Source of the DNA: Haloarcula halobia
Lineage (GTDB): Archaea > Halobacteriota > Halobacteria > Halobacteriales > Haloarculaceae
NCBI RefSeq assembly: GCF_029338255.1
Contig: NZ_CP119787.1
Coordinates: forward strand, 1,798,001-1,862,000
Reading direction: 5' to 3'
Length of the DNA: 64,000 nt
A model generated the notes under the pieces. It made no database searches. It worked only from the letters and a program-made list of their open reading frames with translations, and was not told the DNA's origin. How positions within the stretch are numbered: position 1 is the stretch's first letter; each line of letters opens with the position of its first letter. Position numbers and translations under genes: made by a program. Below are positions 5,674 to 35,505 of the stretch, piece after piece.

Positions 5674-6600
5674 ATGCGCAGTTCTTCACGGCGCGTCGTC
5701 GTCACCGGCGGTGCAGGGTTCATCGGGTCCCATCTCGTCGACCGGCTGGTCGGCGACCACGACGTCGTCGTCGCCGACGACGGGTCCAACGGACGGGCCG
5801 AGTGGGTACACGACGAGGCGACGTTCGTCGACGGGGACCTCACAGACCCCGCCGTCGTCGCCGAGGCCATCACGCAGGAGGTGGACCTGGTCGTCCACCT
5901 CGCCGCCTCGAAACTCGTCGACACGGACGCTCCCCGCAGGCAGTTCGAGGACAACAGCACCATCACGTACAACGTCCTGGAACGGATGGACGAGGTGGGC
6001 GTCGACGAGATCGTGTTTACGTCGTCGTCGACTGTATACGGCGAGGCGCCGCGGCCCACGCCCGAGGACTACGCGCCCCTGGAACCGATCAGCGTCTACG
6101 GCGCGACCAAGCTCGCCGAGGAGTCGCTCGTCTCTACGTACGCCCACAGCCACGGCATGCAGTCGTGGGTGTTCCGATTTGCGAACATCGTCGGGCCGCG
6201 CCTGCGCGGAGCCGTCATCCCGGACTTCATCGAGAAGCTGCGCGAGGACCCCGACTCGCTGACCATCCTCGGCGACGGTCGCCAGGAGAAGTCCTACATG
6301 CACGTCGACGAGTGCATCGACGCGGTGCTGTACGCCGTCGAGCACGCCGACGACGACCACAACGTCTTCAACCTCGGGACGCGGACGACGACGTCCGTCG
6401 ACCGCATCGTGACCATCGTCGCCGAGGAGATGGGTCTCGACCCAGTTCGGGAGTACACCGGCGGTGACCGCGGCTGGACGGGTGACGTCCCGCGGATGCG
6501 CCTCTCCGTCGAGAAGCTGTCGGCGCTCGGGTGGGAACCCCGGCAGTCCAGCGACGACGCGGTCCGCCAGTCCACCCGGGAACTGCTCGAGGAGACCTAG
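5674..6600 (+). CDS. NAD-dependent sugar-nucleotide epimerase/dehydratase
   Basis: A 308-aa extended short-chain dehydrogenase. Visible are the NAD-binding TGGAGFIGSH (residues ~10-19), a TSSSTVYG substrate strand, and the catalytic YGATK (Tyr/Lys pair, ~residue 146). UDP-glucose 4-epimerases and rhamnose/glucuronate pathway enzymes share these features, so the sugar is uncertain; GalE-like activity for glycan or S-layer glycosylation precursors is the best inference. The gene converges on the PEBP gene, and the two stop codons overlap in a single CTAG. Confidence 0.85.
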   Translation: MRSSSRRVVVTGGAGFIGSHLVDRLVGDHDVVVADDGSNGRAEWVHDEATFVDGDLTDPAVVAEAITQEVDLVVHLAASKLVDTDAPRRQFEDNSTITYNVLERMDEVGVDEIVFTSSSTVYGEAPRPTPEDYAPLEPISVYGATKLAEESLVSTYAHSHGMQSWVFRFANIVGPRLRGAVIPDFIEKLREDPDSLTILGDGRQEKSYMHVDECIDAVLYAVEHADDDHNVFNLGTRTTTSVDRIVTIVAEEMGLDPVREYTGGDRGWTGDVPRMRLSVEKLSALGWEPRQSSDDAVRQSTRELLEET

Positions 6601-7052
6601 GCCGGGTAGGTCCCGGTCAGCTCCCCTTTCGCCAGCGTGTGCCCGCTGGCGGCGTCGTAGACGTCGTCCTTGCTTGCGCCCGCGGGAAGGTCCAGCGTCG
6701 TATCCAGCGCGTAGACGATGAAGCGGTAGGTGTGTTCCCGGTCCGGGGGGTTCGGCCCGCCCCATCCCACCTCGCCGTAGTCGTTCTGCCCCTCGACCGC
6801 CTCGTCGGGCGACCAGTCCTCCGGCACGTGAGTCCGCTCGGCCGGGACGTTCCAGACCACCCAGTGGTCCCACACCTTGCCGGCCGGTTCCTTCGCGTCC
6901 GGGTCGTCGACGATGATGACCAGCGAGACCGCCTCCCCGGGGACGCCCCCGACGTCCAGCGGCGGGTTCGTGTTCTCTGCGGTGTATCCGTACTTCTCGG
7001 GGATGCGTTCCCCGTCGTCGAACGCGGGGCTCGTCAGTCGCAGGTCGTCCAT
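6597..7052 (-). CDS. YbhB/YbcL-type PEBP family protein
   Basis: The 151-aa product carries PEBP hallmarks: NPPLDVGGVP, the DDPDA anion-binding stretch, and a DHWVVWN strand followed by GPNPPDREHTYRF. Phosphatidylethanolamine-binding-like proteins are small cytoplasmic ligand-binding proteins; no enzymatic role is established for archaeal ones. Length is standard. It converges with the epimerase gene and overlaps it by 4 nt at the shared CTAG. Confidence 0.9.
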   Translation of the reverse strand: MDDLRLTSPAFDDGERIPEKYGYTAENTNPPLDVGGVPGEAVSLVIIVDDPDAKEPAGKVWDHWVVWNVPAERTHVPEDWSPDEAVEGQNDYGEVGWGGPNPPDREHTYRFIVYALDTTLDLPAGASKDDVYDAASGHTLAKGELTGTYPA

Positions 7053-7126
7053 GTACGAACAGATGACAGCCGGCTGTAAAAACCTGGCCCGGTACGCATT
7101 TGGGCGGCCACCGCCAACCCGCGTCC

Positions 7127-7882
7127 GTGCAGGTCGCAGGGTACCGGTCACGGGTCGAGTCGCCAGCCGCCCTCCGCATCGCCGCGGACGGCGCCGTCCG
7201 CACCGAGCCACTGGCTCCGGGCACCGACCTCGCCTACACGCTCGGCGAGCGACACTGCGCGGGGACGACAGACGGCGACGTCCACATCGCGTGTGCGAAC
7301 GACCCCGCCCCGTACTGCCCGGACCACACGGACCGCTGGCCCTGTGCACGGTGTACCGGCAACTGCACCAAACCCATCGACGCCTGCGACCAGGAACACG
7401 CGATCTACCTCGCCGCGTTCGCCCCCGACACCGTCAAGGTCGGTGTCACACGCTCGTGGCGACTCGAACGCCGGTTGCGCGAGCAGGGCGCCGACCGCGC
7501 GGCCCACCTGCGGACGGTCACGGACGGCCGCATCGCCCGGCAGATCGAGGCCGACATCGCCGCCGATCTGGGAGACCGGGTCCGCGTCCCGACGAAGGTG
7601 GCCGGGTTCGCCGAGACCGTCGACGAGGCGTTCTGGGGCGCGTTGCTGGCGGAGTACGACCCGCTGGAGACGTTCGCGTTCGACTACGGCCTCGACCTCT
7701 CGGAGCGCCCGCTCGCGGAGACGCTGGCGACGGGGACAGTCAGGGGGACGAAAGGGCGGGTCGCCGTCCTCGACAACGGCGGGAGCACGTACGCCGTCGA
7801 CCTGCGCGACCTCGTCGGCTACGAACTCACCGACAGCGGGACCGACCGCGACCTGCAGTCGAGTCTCGGTGCCTTCGGGTAG
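7127..7882 (+). CDS. DUF2797 family protein
   Basis: About 251 aa. The GTG start at 7127 (V-Q-V-A-G-Y-R) is preferred over an upstream TTG because the family begins at this strand. A cysteine-rich segment (CPDHTDRWPCARCTGNCTK, ~residues 63-81) looks like a zinc site. It is followed by a GIY-YIG-like core with YLAAFAPDTVKVGVTR. DUF2797 is common in actinobacteria and haloarchaea and is described only as a GIY-YIG-like uncharacterised protein. Nuclease activity is possible but not shown. Confidence 0.75.
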   Translation: MQVAGYRSRVESPAALRIAADGAVRTEPLAPGTDLAYTLGERHCAGTTDGDVHIACANDPAPYCPDHTDRWPCARCTGNCTKPIDACDQEHAIYLAAFAPDTVKVGVTRSWRLERRLREQGADRAAHLRTVTDGRIARQIEADIAADLGDRVRVPTKVAGFAETVDEAFWGALLAEYDPLETFAFDYGLDLSERPLAETLATGTVRGTKGRVAVLDNGGSTYAVDLRDLVGYELTDSGTDRDLQSSLGAFG

Positions 7883-7917
7883 GTCGCTCAAAACCGCGCC
7901 GGTGTCTACACAAGACC

Positions 7918-7925
7918 CTTTATAC
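7918..7925 (+). promoter_or_regulatory. TATA box for the 7946 gene
   Basis: CTTTATAC stands out in G+C-rich DNA and sits 21-28 nt ahead of the GTG start at 7946. That spacing fits leaderless transcription. Confidence 0.5.
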
Positions 7926-7945
7926 AGGCGTCTGGAGTCCGTCGT

Positions 7946-8962
7946 GTGAGACGAGAAGTCACACTCGCCCTGGCCATGGTCCTCCTCGCGCTGGCGATGG
8001 TCGTCGGCGCGACGGCGGTCCCCGACGTCCTCACCGAACCCGACGAGGACATCCGGCCGAGCCACCTCGATCTGCGCGAGACGACGGTCAACGCCACCGA
8101 CGTCGGCGGCGAGTCGGTCACGCTGGTGCTCGACTCGCGCATCGCCCACCGGGGTGGCACGGCGCGGAACGTCACTGTCGAGACGCGGGTCGTCGACGCG
8201 GAGACCGGGCTGGTCACGACGACGCGCCGCCAGTCCCTGGGCAACGTCACGGGTGAACGGGAGGTATCGGTCGAGACCGAACTCACCGTCGAACGCGAGG
8301 GCGGCTACCGAATCGAGACCCTCGTCTTCGCCGACGGCGAACGCCGTACCACCAGCCGGACCGAGGTACGAAACGTCGACGCGCTCACGCCCGCGTACGC
8401 ACGTAGCAGCGTCTCTTTCCACCGCTTCGAGGGTAGCGCCGCCGGGCTCCGTCCCATCGCCTACCGCATCCAGTCGGTCGCGGACAACCGGACCACGCTG
8501 AACGTCTCCGTGTACTTCACCAACCGCGGCGACGAGCCGGCCGGCGACCTGACGCTGCGGCTGCGTGCCCGCCAGGCCGACTCGAACGTCGTCGCCGACG
8601 AGACCCGGCTCCGGGTCGGCCAGATTCGGCCCGGACGGACCGAGACCGTCACCGCGGAGCTCACCGTCCCGGACGGCTACAACTACTGGCTCGACGGCAT
8701 CCTCCTGTCCGACGGCGTCATCGTCGCCACCGAGAGCGCCCCGGCGAACCTCGACCCACAGGAGACGCTGGCGGTCAACGAGACCCGCCGCGACGTGGGC
8801 TTCCAGTCCGGCGACTTCGCCGAGGAACCCGAGCGCGAGCGGGCCACCGAGGCTCCGGCCAGGGAATCGACCGTCGGCGGGAGCGGCCCCGGGTTCACCG
8901 CCGTCGCGGCGCTGACGGCGCTGCTCGCCGGCACCATCGCACTCGCACGGAGGCGACTATGA
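7946..8962 (+). CDS. Secreted surface protein with PGF-CTERM-like anchor
   Basis: The 338-aa protein has an N-terminal signal or anchor helix (~residues 5-25). Two beta-sandwich-like repeats rich in Val/Thr follow, then an acidic EPERERATEAPARES linker. The end is GPGFTAVAALTALLAG plus a basic RRRL, the layout of PGF-CTERM proteins processed by archaeosortase A. It is therefore probably extracellular and lipid-anchored. The GTG start is supported by the TATA box just upstream. It overlaps the next gene (ATGA). I recognise a haloarchaea-only family but no activity. Confidence 0.7.
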   Translation: MRREVTLALAMVLLALAMVVGATAVPDVLTEPDEDIRPSHLDLRETTVNATDVGGESVTLVLDSRIAHRGGTARNVTVETRVVDAETGLVTTTRRQSLGNVTGEREVSVETELTVEREGGYRIETLVFADGERRTTSRTEVRNVDALTPAYARSSVSFHRFEGSAAGLRPIAYRIQSVADNRTTLNVSVYFTNRGDEPAGDLTLRLRARQADSNVVADETRLRVGQIRPGRTETVTAELTVPDGYNYWLDGILLSDGVIVATESAPANLDPQETLAVNETRRDVGFQSGDFAEEPERERATEAPARESTVGGSGPGFTAVAALTALLAGTIALARRRL

Positions 8963-27536: not shown

Positions 27537-28280
27537 ATGGAAGTCACGCTGCTCGAGTCGACGGACGACCCCGAAGAGCTCATCTGCACGGCGGCCCGGA
27601 ACGACTACAGTGCGGGGTTCGTCGGGGACCAGTCCTTCGAGGAGACGATGGACACCGTCGAGGGCGAGACCATCGAGGACAAGAAGCGGACGCTCATCGG
27701 CCACCTGCTGGACCACGGCCACTTCGGGCCATTCGAGCACGCGCAGGTGACATTCGCCGTCGAGGGTGTCTCGCGGTCGTGTATGGCCCAGATTACCCGC
27801 CACCGGCACGTCTCCTTCGACGTGCAGTCGATGCGGTACGTCTCCTTCGACGACGTGGACCCGGCCGACGTCCGCGAGGGCGAGATGGTCGTCGTCCCGC
27901 CCTCGGCGACGGACCCCTCCTGGGTCGGGCGCAACCAGCAGTCCGGCCAGGTCGACGAGGAGACTGTCGCGGAGCGCGAGGAGATATTCACGGACGCCAT
28001 CGAGAACGCGGTCCGGTCCTACCAGGACCTGCTCGACCTCGGGATGCCGCCCGAGGACGCCCGATTCGTCCTCCCCATCGGGACGGAGGTCAACATCGTC
28101 ATGTCGATGAACGCCCGGATGCTGATGCACGTCGCCGACATGCGGGCGGCCGCCGACGCACAGTGGGAGATTCGAGGGCTGACCGAGGAGATGTTGGACC
28201 TGGCCGCGGAGTGGTGTCCCATCACCTTCGAGCACTACAACGAGCACATGAAACACCGGAAGAACCGTCTCGCACCCTGA
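27537..28280 (+). CDS. thyX: Flavin-dependent thymidylate synthase
   Basis: The 247-aa product carries the ThyX motif RHRHVSFDVQS (R-H-R-x7-S) near residue 87, then MRYVSFDD, with FAD/dUMP-binding helices downstream (LPIGTEVNIVMSMNAR). It makes dTMP from dUMP with methylenetetrahydrofolate, FAD and NADPH. The start ATG follows a GTATTTTCAC A/T-richer element about 25-30 nt upstream. It is a monocistronic unit between the signalling pair and the solute-binding protein. Confidence 0.95.
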   Translation: MEVTLLESTDDPEELICTAARNDYSAGFVGDQSFEETMDTVEGETIEDKKRTLIGHLLDHGHFGPFEHAQVTFAVEGVSRSCMAQITRHRHVSFDVQSMRYVSFDDVDPADVREGEMVVVPPSATDPSWVGRNQQSGQVDEETVAEREEIFTDAIENAVRSYQDLLDLGMPPEDARFVLPIGTEVNIVMSMNARMLMHVADMRAAADAQWEIRGLTEEMLDLAAEWCPITFEHYNEHMKHRKNRLAP

Positions 28281-28394: not shown

Positions 28395-29696
28395 ATGAGT
28401 CGAGACCACAATCGACGCACGTTCTTGAAACGGACCGGAACAGTCGGCACCGTCGGCCTCCTTGGAGGGCTGGCCGGCTGTTCCACAGGTGGCAACGGCG
28501 GGGGCGGGGACACTCCGGACGTCCTCATGGTCGTCGGCTACCCACAGAGCGGGGTCCAGCTGTTCAAGGACTACTACGCCGACTACAGCGACGACGACGC
28601 CAGCATCCTCGTGACCGACGGCCTCCAGTCGGGGGACCTGCCGGGCGACGTCGGCAACGACATGTCCAACGTCCGCGGGACGGCCCCGACGTCGTCCGGT
28701 CCCGGGAAAGACACCTTCGAGAGCCTCTTTCTGGGGGAGTTCGACTACGACCAGGCCGGCGTGTTCACCTCGCAGGCCTACGACGCCTCGGCCGTCCAGA
28801 TTCTCGCCAACCTGATGGCCGGCGCGAACGACGGGGCGTCCATCCGCGACCACATGCGCGTCGTCGCGAACCCCGGCGGGACGACATACACGCCCGAGCA
28901 GCTGCCCGAGGCCGCCGAGGCCGCCGCGGCGGGGGAGAACATCCAGTACGAGGGCGCCTCGAGCGCAGTCGACTTCGACGAGGCCGGCGACATCACGACC
29001 GCACGCTACCAGGTGTTTGGCTTCACCGAGTCGGGCGTCGAGACCCGCGAGACGGTCGACTTCGGCGGCTCGGGCGACATCCCACAGCCCGAACCGGCCG
29101 GCAGCGGTAGCGGAGCGGACCGCACCGTCCGACTCGGCGTGCTCCAGCCCGAGACCGGCGACCTCGGGCCGCTCGGCGTGGCCATCCGCGACGGCGCACT
29201 CCTCCCGGCAATCCAGCTGCGCGACTCCATCGACCAGACCATCGAGACGCAGGTCGGTGACACCCAGTCCCAGGCCCAGGCCGGCATCGACGCCGCGAAC
29301 TCCCTGGTCAGCGCCGGCTTCCCCTCCATCACGGGCCCGGCGGGCTCCGAGACGACCATTCAGGTCGCCCGGAACGTCCTCGTCGACAACCAGGTCGTGG
29401 GCTGCTCGCCGTCGGCGACGTCGCCGGCCATCACCGGGCTCGAGGACGATGACTTCCTCTTCCGGACGCCACCGAGCGACGCGCTCCAGGGGCAGGTGCT
29501 GGCACAGGTCGCCACCGAGAACCTCGACGGCACCACGGCATCGACCCTGTACCTCAACAACAGCTACGGTCAGGCGCTCCAGCAGGCGTTCGCCGACGCC
29601 TTCGAGAACGCCGGTGGCACCGTCGCCCAGCAGGTCAGCTTCGAGTCCCAGCAGTCCTCCTACACCTCGCAGCTCAACAGTGCGATGTCGCTCTGA
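28395..29696 (+). CDS. Circularly permuted ABC solute-binding protein (branched-chain amino acid type)
   Basis: The 433-aa lipoprotein has a Tat signal (RRTFLKRTG) and lipobox GLAGC. Normally a type-I binding protein starts with a strand like TVRLGVLQPETGDLGPLG. Here that canonical N-terminus sits at residue ~244, and what follows the signal (residues ~39-228: DVLMVVGYPQSGVQLFKDYY through FGFTESGVETRETVDF) is the usual C-terminal half. The protein ends SSYTSQLNSAMSL, exactly where the canonical chain would continue into DVLMVVGYP. The halves are joined by a Gly/Ser/Pro linker. It is the likely binding protein of livHMGF, though encoded on the opposite strand 1.8 kb from livF. Confidence 0.85.
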   Translation: MSRDHNRRTFLKRTGTVGTVGLLGGLAGCSTGGNGGGGDTPDVLMVVGYPQSGVQLFKDYYADYSDDDASILVTDGLQSGDLPGDVGNDMSNVRGTAPTSSGPGKDTFESLFLGEFDYDQAGVFTSQAYDASAVQILANLMAGANDGASIRDHMRVVANPGGTTYTPEQLPEAAEAAAAGENIQYEGASSAVDFDEAGDITTARYQVFGFTESGVETRETVDFGGSGDIPQPEPAGSGSGADRTVRLGVLQPETGDLGPLGVAIRDGALLPAIQLRDSIDQTIETQVGDTQSQAQAGIDAANSLVSAGFPSITGPAGSETTIQVARNVLVDNQVVGCSPSATSPAITGLEDDDFLFRTPPSDALQGQVLAQVATENLDGTTASTLYLNNSYGQALQQAFADAFENAGGTVAQQVSFESQQSSYTSQLNSAMSL

Positions 29697-29756: not shown

Positions 29757-31088
29757 TCACCCCTGGTGTGGCGTCGGGGCCGCGAACTGACCGTCCTCGA
29801 ACGCGACGGGGGCTGCCTCCCGAACCACGCGCAGGTCGTCCCGGTCACGGGCGGCCTCGAGCAGCGCCGTCGAGGCGTACATCCGGTCCAGTCGCATCGT
29901 GTCGGTCACGCGGAGCACCCGTGCCTCGTCCGCCGGAACCACGCCGCCGGTCGACAGCGACGCCGTCAGTCCGGCCCGGTCTGTCTCGACCACTGGCGGG
30001 AGGCGGACCCCACGGACGGTACTCGCCGTGATCGCGTTGATGAGCGTCTTCTCGGCCTCGAGCTCGTCGAGGACCGCCTCGTGGACGAAGTCGGCCGACC
30101 CGATGCCCATGGCGTTGCCGTGGGTCGTCTCCGTGAGGCCGCGAGCGAAGATGCGCTTGATGTCCGGTCGGTCCGGCGCGGGTTCGTTGATGGCGAAGGG
30201 CCGGCGGCCGATGACGTTCGTGTCCATCCCCTGCCCGCTGACGTCCTTCCCGACCCGGTCGACGACGACCACGTCCAGTTCGTCGAAGGGGATCGTGGGC
30301 ATGATGTCGTAGGCGGTCTCGAGGAGTTCTGCCTCCCGGTCTAAGAAGCCCGACGGCCGGACCCCCTCGACGATGGCGGTGTCGTCGTGCTGGTCCTCGA
30401 CGACGGCCACGCCGCCGACGACCGGGAGGGCCTCCAGCAGCTGCTCGGTTATCTCCGGGATCATGTTCCGGAAGCTCCAGTCGACGGCCCACTCGTGGGC
30501 GATCTTCGCCCCGCGTTGCTTGCCCATCCCGATGACCAGCATCTTCGAGAGGCCGCTCTCGACGGCCCCGTCGAAGTCGGTGTGGGGCTTGACGCGGTTG
30601 ACCGGCAGGATGGCGTCGGCGGCGACGGCGGTCGCGTCCGCGACGACGGGGACGTCTCGCTCCGCCGTGCGCCCCACCTCGACGACGTCCATGCTCGAGC
30701 GTATCTCACAGCCCACGGAGGACTCGGTGACGCCGAGTGCTTCGAGTTTCTCCCGTTGACCCTGGGCCGTGGCGCCGCCGTGACTCCCCATCGCCGGGAA
30801 GACGAACGGCTCGTACCCCAGGGCCTCGACGGCAGCGACGACGCCACCGACGATGGTCGCGAGGTTAGCGATGCCGCGACTCCCCGCGCCGATCGCCACC
30901 TCGCCGCCGTCGGGCACTTCGGACCAGTCCAGCGACTCGACGGCCTGGCGGGTCAGCGCCTCCATGTCCGCGGGGTCGATCGGGTCTGTCTCCCACACCT
31001 GTTCGACGACCCCCATCTCGGGCAGCGCCTGTTCGCCCGTCGCTTCGAGGACGACCGATTCCGGGACCGAGAGCGAGCTCCTGTCCAT
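29757..31088 (-). CDS. LarA-like lactate racemase domain protein (DUF2088)
   Basis: The 443-aa protein has LarA-type landmarks: a GSRGIANL strand-turn, the metal/cofactor-region FPAMGSHGGAT, NRVKPHTDF, and MGKQRGAK. LarA uses a nickel-pincer nucleotide to racemise 2-hydroxyacids. Many DUF2088 members act on other hydroxyacids or sugar acids, and no larB/C/E genes are in this window. It lies between the solute-binding protein and livF but is probably transcribed alone. The substrate is unknown. Confidence 0.8.
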   Translation of the reverse strand: MDRSSLSVPESVVLEATGEQALPEMGVVEQVWETDPIDPADMEALTRQAVESLDWSEVPDGGEVAIGAGSRGIANLATIVGGVVAAVEALGYEPFVFPAMGSHGGATAQGQREKLEALGVTESSVGCEIRSSMDVVEVGRTAERDVPVVADATAVAADAILPVNRVKPHTDFDGAVESGLSKMLVIGMGKQRGAKIAHEWAVDWSFRNMIPEITEQLLEALPVVGGVAVVEDQHDDTAIVEGVRPSGFLDREAELLETAYDIMPTIPFDELDVVVVDRVGKDVSGQGMDTNVIGRRPFAINEPAPDRPDIKRIFARGLTETTHGNAMGIGSADFVHEAVLDELEAEKTLINAITASTVRGVRLPPVVETDRAGLTASLSTGGVVPADEARVLRVTDTMRLDRMYASTALLEAARDRDDLRVVREAAPVAFEDGQFAAPTPHQG

Positions 31089-31519: not shown

Positions 31520-32275
31520 TCAGCCGCCGAGGAAGTCCTGGCGGACCTGCTGGTCGTTCAGCAGCGTCTCGCCCTCGTCCTGGTAGCGGTTCTGCCCCTG
31601 GACGAGGACGTAGCCCCGGTCACACCGTCGCAGCGCCTCCTTGGCGTTCTGTTCGACCATCAGGACGGCCGTCCCGTCGTCGTTGATAGTGTCGATGCGG
31701 TCGAACATCTCCGAGACCAGGTCCGGCGCGAGGCCGGCCGAGGGCTCGTCGAGCAAGAGGAGGTCCGGTTCGAGCATCAGGGCCCGGCCCATCGCCAGCA
31801 TCTGCTGCTGGCCGCCCGAGAGCGTCCCCGCCTTCTGCGTCGAGCGCTCCCTGAGAATGGGGAAGCGGTCGTAGATGCGCTCGATCCGGTCTTCGGGCAC
31901 CTCGTCTAGGATGTACGCGCCCATCTCGAGGTTCTCGCGGACGCTCAGGCTCGCGAAGACGTTCTCGTTCTGGGGGACGTAGCCGATGCCCTCGTGGATG
32001 ATCTGATCGGGCGAGCGTCGACTGATGTCGGTGCCGTCGAAGACGACCTGTCCGCCCATGTACGTCGTCAGGCCGAAGACGGACTTCATCACCGTCGACT
32101 TGCCCGCACCGTTCGGGCCGACGATGACGACGTACTCGCCGTCGCCGACGTCCATGTCGACGTCCGAGAGGACCTGCAGGTCGCCGTAGCCGGCGTCCAG
32201 GTCGCGGACCGCCAGCAGACTCTTGTCGGGGGCCGGCAGCGTCACCTCGTCGGACCGCTGTGCCTGCTGGCTCAT
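31520..32275 (-). CDS. livF: Branched-chain amino acid-type ABC transporter, ATP-binding subunit
   Basis: A 251-aa ABC ATPase with Walker A GPNGAGKS, signature LSGGQQQM, Walker B LLLLDEPSAGLAP and H-loop region VEQNA. This spacing and the short C-terminus match LivF. The start overlaps the livG stop (ATGA), so it is the last of four coupled genes livH-livM-livG-livF. The transported ligand may be amino acids, urea or another small solute. Confidence 0.92.
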   Translation of the reverse strand: MSQQAQRSDEVTLPAPDKSLLAVRDLDAGYGDLQVLSDVDMDVGDGEYVVIVGPNGAGKSTVMKSVFGLTTYMGGQVVFDGTDISRRSPDQIIHEGIGYVPQNENVFASLSVRENLEMGAYILDEVPEDRIERIYDRFPILRERSTQKAGTLSGGQQQMLAMGRALMLEPDLLLLDEPSAGLAPDLVSEMFDRIDTINDDGTAVLMVEQNAKEALRRCDRGYVLVQGQNRYQDEGETLLNDQQVRQDFLGG

Positions 32276-33105
32276 ACGTCACCTCCGAGGTAGGCCTCGA
32301 GCACGCGTTCGTCGGACTGTATCGTCGCCGCGTCGCCCTCGGCGAGCACTGCGCCCTGGTGCATCACGATGATGTGTTCGCAGTGGTTCATGATGACGCC
32401 CATGTCGTGTTCGACCAGCAGGAAGGTCAGCCCGTCCGCGCGGAGTTCGTGGATGCGTTCGAGCAGCTTCTCCTCTAGCGTCGGGTTCACCCCCGCCAGC
32501 GGTTCGTCTAGCAAGACCATCTCCGGGTCGGTCATCAGGACCCGTGCCATCTCCAGCAACTTCCGCTGGCCGCCCGAGAGCGTCCCGGCGTTCTCGTGTG
32601 CCAGGTGGTCTATCTCGAAGAACTCGAGGGTCTCCCAGGCCCGGTCGACCACGTCGCGCTCGTCGTCCTTGACGCCCGCGCGCAACCCCGGGGCGACGGC
32701 CCGGAGTGCCGACTCGCCGACCTGGTCCGGGGGGGCGAGCATCACGTTCTCCAGCACCGTCATCTCCGAGAGCTCGCGGGCGATCTGGAACGTCCTGACG
32801 AGACCGGCCTTCGCGAGCGTGTACGGCGGAAGCCCGGTGACGTCCGTCCCGTCGAAGCGGACCTCGCCGGCAGTCGGCGTGTGGATGCCGGCGATACAGT
32901 TGAACGTCGTCGACTTCCCGGCCCCGTTCGGCCCGATGAGGCCCGTGAGCGCGCCCGTCTCGACCGCGAAGGACGCGCCGTCGACGGCGGTGACGCCCCC
33001 GAACTCCTTGCGCAGGCCGTCCACCTCGAGCAGCGGGTCGGCGATGTCGTCGCTGCGCACCGCGAACTCGCGGTCCGTCGCGGCCGTGGTTTCGGTCTCA
33101 CTCAT
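32272..33105 (-). CDS. livG: Branched-chain amino acid-type ABC transporter, ATP-binding subunit
   Basis: The 277-aa ATPase shows Walker A GPNGAGKS, signature LSGGQRK, Walker B MVLLDEPLAGVNP and the LivG-type long insert between Walker A and signature. ATG 33105 is taken over an upstream ATG because it begins the acidic MSETET leader; it overlaps the livM 3' end by 8 nt. It acts with LivF at the cytoplasmic face of LivHM. Confidence 0.92.
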   Translation of the reverse strand: MSETETTAATDREFAVRSDDIADPLLEVDGLRKEFGGVTAVDGASFAVETGALTGLIGPNGAGKSTTFNCIAGIHTPTAGEVRFDGTDVTGLPPYTLAKAGLVRTFQIARELSEMTVLENVMLAPPDQVGESALRAVAPGLRAGVKDDERDVVDRAWETLEFFEIDHLAHENAGTLSGGQRKLLEMARVLMTDPEMVLLDEPLAGVNPTLEEKLLERIHELRADGLTFLLVEHDMGVIMNHCEHIIVMHQGAVLAEGDAATIQSDERVLEAYLGGDV

Positions 33106-34378
33106 CGTGGCCACCTCCACTATCGGCACGTCGCTCGTTCAGGTCCACGCTCGCCGCCGGTTCGTTTCGGTGACCGAGCAGCCCCTTGGGCTGGTTCTGG
33201 ATGATGTAGATGAGGACGACGCCGATGAGGACGAACCGGAGCGTGCTGATGTTCCCGACCGTGTACGCGACGAAGGGCGTCGGGTCGAGCGCGCCGAGTG
33301 CGGCGACGGCCTCGACGATGTTGCCCGCCGACCCGCCGCCACCCAGCGGGATGTTCTCGCCGATCCGCGCCGGGAGGTAAAAGAGCAGCGCCGAGAACGT
33401 CGCCGCGCCGAGGATGCTGCCCGTGTTCGATCCCGACCCGCCGATGATGAGCGCCGCGAACACGTAGAACGTGATGGCGGGGCGGAACTGCTGGGGGCTG
33501 ATGTAGCCCGCACCGCCGCGAAAGAGGATGCCCGCGAGCCCCATCAGCGCACAGCCGATCATGAACGCCTTGATCTTGAACAGGCGGGTGTCCTTCCCGA
33601 GTGATTGCGTGACCGTCTCGTCCTCGCGGATGGCCTTCAAAACCCGGCCGAAGGGCGAGTTCGAGAGGCGGGTCAGCACCCAGTACGAGCCGGCGACCAC
33701 GGCCAGCAGCGCGAGGCCGTAGGCGATGTTGACCACGTTCGGACTCGAGACCCCGACGGCCCCGGCGGCCGAGACGAACGGGCCGCCGACGCCGGTCACG
33801 AGGTCGGCAACGACGTCGTCGGGGGCCGCAAACGAGATGCCCGTCGCGCCCCCGGTCCCGAACGTCGCACCGAACAGGGTTATCTCGGCCACGCCGCTCC
33901 AGTTGACGAACAGCCGGATGATCTCCGAGAGCGCGACGGTCACGATGGCCAGGTAGTCGGCCTTCAGCCGCAGCGCCGGGAGCGCCGCGAGGCCGCCGAC
34001 GACGGCTGCGACCACCATCCCGCCGACGACGCCGACGACCAGCGGGAGGCCGAATCCCGGGACGCCGCCGGCACCCGGGTCGCCCGGCGCGGTCAGTATC
34101 GCCATCGTGTACGCGCCGACGGCCATGAACCCGGCGACGCCGATGTTGAACAGTCCGGTGTACCCCCACTGGAGGTTGAGCGCGAGCGTCAGAATCGCGT
34201 AGGCGCCGATGAGGACGGTGACGCTACCGACGAACCCGGCCGCGAGGTTCGGCCACTGACTGCCGCCAACGACGCGTGCGAGGACGACCAACGTCAGCCA
34301 GATGGCCACGATGTAGCCGCCGACGAGGACGATGTCGGGCAGCGCGTCGAGTCTGTCGCGGACCGTCGGTTCGCTCAT
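33098..34378 (-). CDS. livM: Branched-chain amino acid-type ABC transporter permease
   Basis: A 426-aa integral membrane permease with ~9-10 helices and the LivM signature region SRLSNSPFGRVLKAIREDETVTQSLG carrying the cytoplasmic coupling helix; here it reads TRLSNSPFGRVLKAI. The start overlaps the livH stop (ATGA). A cytoplasmic charged tail ends the protein. It pairs with LivH in a heteromeric channel. Confidence 0.93.
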   Translation of the reverse strand: MSEPTVRDRLDALPDIVLVGGYIVAIWLTLVVLARVVGGSQWPNLAAGFVGSVTVLIGAYAILTLALNLQWGYTGLFNIGVAGFMAVGAYTMAILTAPGDPGAGGVPGFGLPLVVGVVGGMVVAAVVGGLAALPALRLKADYLAIVTVALSEIIRLFVNWSGVAEITLFGATFGTGGATGISFAAPDDVVADLVTGVGGPFVSAAGAVGVSSPNVVNIAYGLALLAVVAGSYWVLTRLSNSPFGRVLKAIREDETVTQSLGKDTRLFKIKAFMIGCALMGLAGILFRGGAGYISPQQFRPAITFYVFAALIIGGSGSNTGSILGAATFSALLFYLPARIGENIPLGGGGSAGNIVEAVAALGALDPTPFVAYTVGNISTLRFVLIGVVLIYIIQNQPKGLLGHRNEPAASVDLNERRADSGGGHDE

Positions 34379-35505
34379 GCGGTGGTCACCCCCCCGAAGA
34401 TGCCGGACGGACGGAGCAACAGGACGACGATGAGCACGAGGAACGCCGCCGCGCGCGTCAGCCCGGACGGGAGCCAGATGAGCGCCAGGCTGTCGACGAG
34501 GCCGATGAGCACGCCCCCGGCCATCGCACCGTATATCGACCCGATGCCCCCCACGATGACCGCCGCGAAGATGAGCAAGAGGAGAATCCAGCCGAAGTTA
34601 AACGAGATGGTCCCACTCTCCAGGACGAGCAGGTAGCCGCCGACGCCGGCCAGGCCGCCGCCGAGAATCCAGGTCAGGCGGATGACGCGTTCGGTCGGGA
34701 TGCCGCTGACCAGTGCCAGGTCCTCGTTGTCGGCCATCGCCCGCATCGCCTTCCCGAGTTTGGTCCGCTGGAGCAGGAGGTGGACGCCCAGCATCAGGGC
34801 GACGGCGACGACCAGCAGGGCGAGTTCGTTGTCGGTGATGGTCACCGCGCGCTGGCCCGCCAGGTCAAGCAGGACGAACTGGACACCACTGGTCGCGACG
34901 CCGCTCGTCTGTGTCCCGAAGACGAAAGCGATGATATACCGCATCGCGAGGGCGACGCCGATGGAGGCGATGAGCAGGGAGATGTTGCCCGCGTCTCGCA
35001 TCGGGCGGTAGGTCAGTCGGTCGACGAGCAACACCACGGCGACGGTGCCCACGCCGGCGACGACCAGCCCCAGCAGGACCGGCCCGAGTGCGGTAAGCGC
35101 GCTGAGCTGCTGGCCAGAGCCGAACATGAACAGGTCGGCCAGCGAGGCACCGGTCCCCAGGCCACCGACGACGTAGGCGGCGACCCACCCGATGAACGCG
35201 CCCGCCGTCACGGTGTCTCCGTGGGCGAAGTTGGCGAAATCGAGGATGCTGTAGGTCATCGACAGACCGATGCCGGCCAGTCCCACCGCCAGGCCGACCA
35301 GGATGCCGTCGAGCACCATCGACGCGAGCGACGAGACGGTCAACGTCCCACCCAGGAGTTTGACGCCGAAGAAGAACACCGACGTACCGGAGAGTTTCAC
35401 CACGAGGTCCAGCACGAGGAACCCGACGACGGCGCCGATAACCGCCGTCCCGGGCCGCGCTACGAACAGTCGCCGACCGTCAGCTACTGTGTCTACGATA
35501 CTCAT
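34375..35505 (-). CDS. livH: Branched-chain amino acid-type ABC transporter permease
   Basis: The 376-aa permease has eight or more helices and the LivH/BPD_transp_2 coupling-loop motif TKLGKAMRAMADNEDLA. It is the first gene of the operon. A TTATTTAC element on the minus strand at 35533-35540 lies 28-35 nt before the start and fits its TATA box. Its N-terminal ~60 residues are longer than bacterial LivH and include an extra helix. Confidence 0.93.
   Translation of the reverse strand: MSIVDTVADGRRLFVARPGTAVIGAVVGFLVLDLVVKLSGTSVFFFGVKLLGGTLTVSSLASMVLDGILVGLAVGLAGIGLSMTYSILDFANFAHGDTVTAGAFIGWVAAYVVGGLGTGASLADLFMFGSGQQLSALTALGPVLLGLVVAGVGTVAVVLLVDRLTYRPMRDAGNISLLIASIGVALAMRYIIAFVFGTQTSGVATSGVQFVLLDLAGQRAVTITDNELALLVVAVALMLGVHLLLQRTKLGKAMRAMADNEDLALVSGIPTERVIRLTWILGGGLAGVGGYLLVLESGTISFNFGWILLLLIFAAVIVGGIGSIYGAMAGGVLIGLVDSLALIWLPSGLTRAAAFLVLIVVLLLRPSGIFGGVTTA

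Follow-up and report, generated by a model that had tools for sequence, protein, structure and literature searches.

A naturally circularly permuted LivJ-type solute-binding lipoprotein beside a haloarchaeal livHMGF locus

The window analysed here is a 64,000-nucleotide stretch of the Haloarcula halobia contig NZ_CP119787.1. One of its genes very probably codes for a functional type I lipoprotein of the LivJ/HAAT (amino acid/amide) family whose chain is naturally circularly permuted, and which would act as binding protein for the LivHMGF importer encoded next to it. The chain runs from the signal through the canonical C-terminal half (half B) and a linker to the canonical N-terminal half (half A). 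The sequence and the predicted fold demonstrate this order, as do about 160 genomes. Permuted and canonical (A-B) versions alternate in one neighbourhood across haloarchaea. Two trees point to at least two independent permutations in the same gene at the same lobe-2 breakpoint, although the deep branches are weak, and three to five events are likely, five being the number on the best tree.

Chain order, predicted fold and ligand pocket

The features of the gene and of the neighbouring importer are collected in Table 1. The Pfam Peripla_BP_6 match was limited to residues 244-431, which correspond to profile positions 1-187 of 343. When the protein was cut at residue 240 and the two pieces were swapped, its global alignment score against the canonical haloarchaeal homologue L088 rose from 579 to 1125, and three further canonical references behaved in the same way, whereas the best of 50 shuffles scored 57 against L088 and at most 63 across the four references. 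Half A shared 60% identity over 187 aa with the A half of L088, and half B shared 56% over 183 aa with its B half; the identity of half B to canonical haloarchaeal B halves ranged from 47% to 59%. Homology to the HAAT/LivJ family thus extends across the whole domain, through Peripla_BP_6 for half A and through identity for half B, and the canonical counterparts match LivK/LivJ. When the halves were searched separately against homologous loci, the near relatives of this gene were found in B-A order and the others in A-B order. The plasmid tblastn search joins swapped pieces, so that its coverage figures carry no information on order.

Table 1. Features of the permuted binding-protein gene and of the adjacent importer genes (positions in the window)
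Feature	Position	Strand	Basis
Whole gene (433 aa), encoding a type I solute-binding lipoprotein in circularly permuted (B-A) order	28395..29696	+	Sequence, Pfam, alignments to canonical relatives
Tat-type signal peptide (NRRTFLK), ending in lipobox LAG/C (cut before Cys)	28395..28478	+	Direct reading of the sequence
Lipobox Cys29 and Gly-rich tether (residues 29-41), low model confidence	28479..28517	+	Sequence; pLDDT <50 at residues 1-37
Half B (residues 42-223), canonical C-terminal half: remainder of lobe 2 and return to lobe 1	28518..29063	+	Identity to L088 B half; model elements E43-47 to E214-223
New 19-residue linker GGSGDIPQPEPAGSGSGAD, connecting the old C and N termini	29064..29120	+	Sequence; linker comparison
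Half A (residues 243-433), canonical N-terminal half: start of lobe 1 and first part of lobe 2	29121..29693	+	Identity to L088 A half; Peripla_BP_6 positions 1-187
LivF-type ATPase	31520..32275	-	ABC_tran; best NCBIfam match LivF
LivG-type ATPase	32272..33129	-	ABC_tran, BCA_ABC_TP_C; best NCBIfam match LivG
LivM-type permease	33098..34378	-	BPD_transp_2; best NCBIfam match LivM
LivH-type permease	34375..35505	-	BPD_transp_2; best NCBIfam matches UrtB and LivH, below cut-off

The first-pass annotation, which had read a circular permutation from the sequence, is borne out by these alignments to unpermuted homologues, and its boundaries stand: D42 begins the canonical C-terminal half, which opens with DVLMVVGYP, R243/T244 begins the canonical N-terminal half, which opens with RTVRLGVLQPETGD, and the protein ends at SYTSQLNSAMSL, the old A-B junction. 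The linker between the halves was missing from the canonical homologues compared. By sequence reading, starts resembling RR...LAGC were present in most relatives, whether permuted or canonical.

AlphaFold2 predicted the permuted protein with a pLDDT of 88.2 (above 90 for most of the domain) and a pTM of 0.85 from 63 permuted sequences, and values below 50 were confined to the N-terminal residues marked in Table 1. The model of canonical L088, based on 22 sequences, reached a pLDDT of 88.0 and a pTM of 0.88. The models were compared by element order and with Foldseek. Both displayed the two-lobed fold with matching elements, and the 26 secondary-structure elements of the permuted model were an exact cyclic shift of those of L088, with the 13 elements of B followed by the 13 of A. 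The canonical model aligned over its full length with the LivK protein TM1135 (3td9; 381 columns, TM 0.81/0.87), whereas about half of the permuted model aligned with the same structure (194 columns, TM 0.36/0.43), and none of its 50 best Foldseek matches was a full-length PDB alignment in the permuted order. The model elements place the breakpoint after a helix and before the next strand, in what homology identifies as lobe 2; the earlier proposal of a lobe-2 breakpoint that leaves the fold intact is accordingly supported by the structure prediction.

Six residues, S318, S338, T342 and Y391 from half A together with Y49 and D75 from half B (numbering of the 433-aa protein), were invariant or nearly so in both orders. 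By homology these residues would line the amino-acid pocket of LivJ/LivK, and the ligand may be held between the lobes by residues from both swapped halves (S318, S338-T342 and Y391; Y49 and D75). Among congeners the gene is under purifying selection, with dN/dS values of 0.13-0.23 (NG86). A degraded gene was ruled out by these values and the conserved pocket.

Homology further suggests how the protein would work. It is predicted to be exported by the Tat pathway and anchored through a lipid on Cys29, and it would then deliver its ligand to LivHM, with LivGF providing the power. Judged from element order and homology, the lipid tether would enter lobe 2 rather than lobe 1, a placement that the flexibility of the tether and the rough symmetry of the two lobes may make tolerable.

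Occurrence and genomic neighbourhood

The same order in sister genomes, which the first-pass annotation had named as a check, was recovered in a single unbroken match in 28 of the 32 congeneric genomes sampled, and it recurred in many other genera of Halobacteriales. By count from the match table, about 160 of the 392 sampled Halobacteriales genomes, spread over many genera and families, carry the permuted order. In this survey 202 of the 392 genomes gave a match at 1e-60, and 43 of these gave half-length matches only; in 30 of the 43, a second search followed by inspection of the best locus revealed a canonical gene in 29 cases and a broken permuted gene in one (G288). In that genome the gene lies in two pieces about 1.4 kb apart (L136, C2:2081189-2083864), possibly through an insertion. 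The permuted order is found in named isolates such as Haloarcula vallismortis, H. japonica, H. amylolytica, H. argentinensis, H. salina and Halomicroarcula rubra. Four genomes (G148, G178, G252 and G276) hold, according to the match table only, a permuted gene and elsewhere an adjacent pair of half-matches in canonical order. The permuted order was found neither in 150 Pseudomonadota and 201 Chloroflexota genomes, the bacterial phyla sampled, nor in the non-Halobacteriales archaea sampled from the phylum.

Two permease and two ATPase genes form an adjacent livHMGF set that starts 1.8 kb from the binding-protein gene, and such a set is conserved in most loci examined. In nearly all haloarchaeal loci examined, permuted or canonical, the binding-protein gene is convergent with livF-livG-livM-livH; the exceptions are L097 and L098, where the liv genes are reversed, and L106, L116 and L130, where no liv genes were found nearby. 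The genome has one other strong Peripla_BP_6 match, L001, which is canonical and lies next to its own livH, and L003, the third match, is weak and represents a different protein. Since the only other strong family member has its own livH, the permuted protein is the obvious candidate partner of the livHMGF set described here, and the partnership first proposed from proximity is supported.

A gene for a nickel pincer cofactor-dependent (LarA-type) isomerase (29757-31088, minus strand; group 22) lies between the binding-protein gene and livF only here and in L004 and L083, whereas livF directly adjoins the binding-protein gene in the remaining Haloarcula loci examined. Directly upstream is a ThyX-type thymidylate synthase gene (27537-28280, plus strand), which occupies the same place in L004-L008, L082 and L083.

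Direction and number of the changes of order

The B-A order is considered derived because the bacterial and non-Halobacteriales archaeal relatives sampled are canonical and the junction length is kept in canonical copies. The A-B junction spacing (Y-to-P) in canonical haloarchaeal copies equals that of most bacterial (Chloroflexota) rows, and no linker is inserted. This length was matched by regular expression in 46 of 50 canonical haloarchaeal copies and by eye in the other four; three rows were read as 26 and one haloarchaeal and two bacterial rows were unmatched by the expression, and the haloarchaeal ones among these misses show the common spacing by eye. Reversions to the canonical order are unlikely.

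Circular permutation usually arises when a gene is duplicated and fused and the outer halves are then lost. The haloarchaeal protein may have arisen in this way, with tandem duplication and fusion giving A-B-A-B, after which the first A and the last B would have been lost and the signal peptide retained. In a Dehalococcoidia locus (L019, about 5770-8292), a single 841-aa ORF beside livM and livH carries two complete binding domains head to tail (A-B-A-B), and the permuted profile aligns over its whole length with the middle of this ORF. Tandem pairs of permuted genes in G227, G242, G291, G310 and G313 indicate that the haloarchaeal locus does duplicate. No haloarchaeal duplication intermediate (A-B-A or A-B-A-B) was found among the loci examined. 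In the tandem permuted genes of L106, L107, L115, L131 and L132, the second copy has a Tat-like start that lacks the lipobox cysteine, as if the protein were released rather than anchored.

Binding-protein trees were built on alignments restored to canonical order. In the 104-row tree the permuted genes formed five groups scattered among canonical ones, corresponding to 5-6 changes of order. A single permuted clade was rejected on the binding-protein trees (AU p=0.0014, and p=0.0003 on the reduced set) and on the concatenated LivFGMH tree (p=1e-42). The firmest case for a separate origin is the clade comprising L067, L068, L069, L104, L109, L123 and L136, which is sister to canonical L102 with a support of 100/98 in the binding-protein tree; the same clade minus L136, which was added later, is sister to L102 at 99 in the Liv tree, and its union with the large permuted clade was rejected on the binding-protein tree (p=0.0005). 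The linkers of Haloarcula, of G038/G043, of G047 and of the large clade, four of the five groups, share a Pro-Gly motif and similar length, and this likeness argues for fewer origins.

The alternative that survives best is that there were exactly two origins, one giving rise to the L067-L123 clade and the other to the remaining four groups, which gene conversion or transfer of the binding-protein gene would have scattered on the trees. We lean against this account while treating it as a real possibility. The linker similarity speaks for it, and on the binding-protein tree the union of the four groups was borderline (p=0.042) and two three-clade unions within them were not rejected (p=0.14 and 0.054); the trees of A only and B only also disagree weakly on the placement of G047. 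Against it, the Liv tree rejected the four-group clade (p=4e-6), and canonical L088 and L137 grouped with the permuted G047 gene at 97/91 in the 104-row tree.

A single ancient haloarchaeal permutation followed by many reversions is improbable. The Pro-Gly linkers look homologous across four permuted clades, as this history would predict, but on the 104-row tree it requires no fewer than about six reversions, and every bacterial relative and every archaeon sampled from the rest of the phylum is canonical. Moreover, the canonical haloarchaeal junctions have the bacterial length without a linker, and reversion by duplication would not be expected to recreate this in every instance.

It is very doubtful that the protein is a chimera with halves from two different binding proteins. 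Half A is usually nearer to canonical relatives than half B (60% versus 56% for L088; 61% versus 47% for L084), yet both halves find their closest relatives in one canonical haloarchaeal family, which occupies the same neighbourhood, and whether the tree is built from A or from B, the permuted genes are scattered among the canonical members of that family. An assembly error or local rearrangement artefact, in favour of which nothing was found, has a negligible probability and misassembly can be ruled out, as dozens of independent genomes at 46-95% protein identity share the order, the breakpoints and an intact frame, so that chance is no explanation either.

The preferred reading is that the switch from A-B to B-A occurred at least twice, and probably three to five times, in haloarchaea, always in the same helix-strand loop and the same neighbourhood. 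The fuller proposition, that one loop in one gene of a conserved transport locus was permuted three to five times independently and that the two topologies are interchangeable in nature, stands in our judgement at even chances.

Comparison with known binding proteins

The first-pass annotation had also held that no natural permutants of this fold were described, which is incorrect: TpMglB-2 (Tp0684) of Treponema pallidum, a type I/cluster B lipoprotein that is naturally circularly permuted, was published in 2016 together with its crystal structure and evidence of glucose binding, and the name "Type Ic / Cluster Bc" was proposed for it (PMC4990184). The literature searched, in which subscription journals were thinly covered, yielded no description of a permuted LivJ-type protein.

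Glycine-betaine-binding proteins belong to a different fold class (type II). They were reported as permuted by CPSARST in 2008 and share natural permutation of a solute-binding protein with the present case, but those cases were low in identity and found by structure comparison (PMC2395249).

With LivJ/LivK (TM1135 3td9, Brucella 4n0q and E. coli 1usg/2liv) the haloarchaeal protein shares the family, the bilobed fold, the pocket motif and the LivHMGF partner, whereas LivJ/LivK have an A-B chain and are exported or anchored from the lobe-1 end. The canonical haloarchaeal proteins (L088, L102, L137 and others) are closer still: they mostly have Tat-lipoprotein starts, the halves compared are 51-63% identical, and L088 and L102 were seen in the same neighbourhood convergent with livFGMH. 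They differ in their A-B order and in lacking the B-A linker.

TpMglB-2 and the haloarchaeal protein are both type I proteins with a circularly permuted topology. In TpMglB-2 the first three strands of the N lobe have moved to the C terminus and a fourth hinge crossing is present (PMC4990184), whereas the haloarchaeal breakpoint is in lobe 2. TpMglB-2 is bacterial and belongs to the glucose (MglB) family, whereas the haloarchaeal protein is of the HAAT/LivJ family. The moved part of TpMglB-2 is 13% identical to the canonical N terminus, and its origin was therefore left open (PMC4990184); the haloarchaeal halves are about 50-60% identical to canonical counterparts in the same neighbourhood, and their distribution is polyphyletic. 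The authors of the TpMglB-2 study also suggested that tethering favours permutation (PMC4990184). Both orders in haloarchaea are mostly predicted lipoproteins from their Tat/lipobox starts, which indicates that membrane tethering alone does not explain the permutation.

New in the present case are the amino-acid family, the archaeal host, the lobe-2 breakpoint, the clearly homologous syntenic canonical counterparts and the recurrence. The polyphyletic alternation of the two versions in one neighbourhood is the largest point. As a rule, natural circular permutations are ancient and documented in distantly related pairs, whereas here both versions are about 50-60% identical and have a neighbourhood and transporter in common. 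The apparent recurrence at one breakpoint would provide natural replicates for how topologies arise and how they affect folding, stability and transport.
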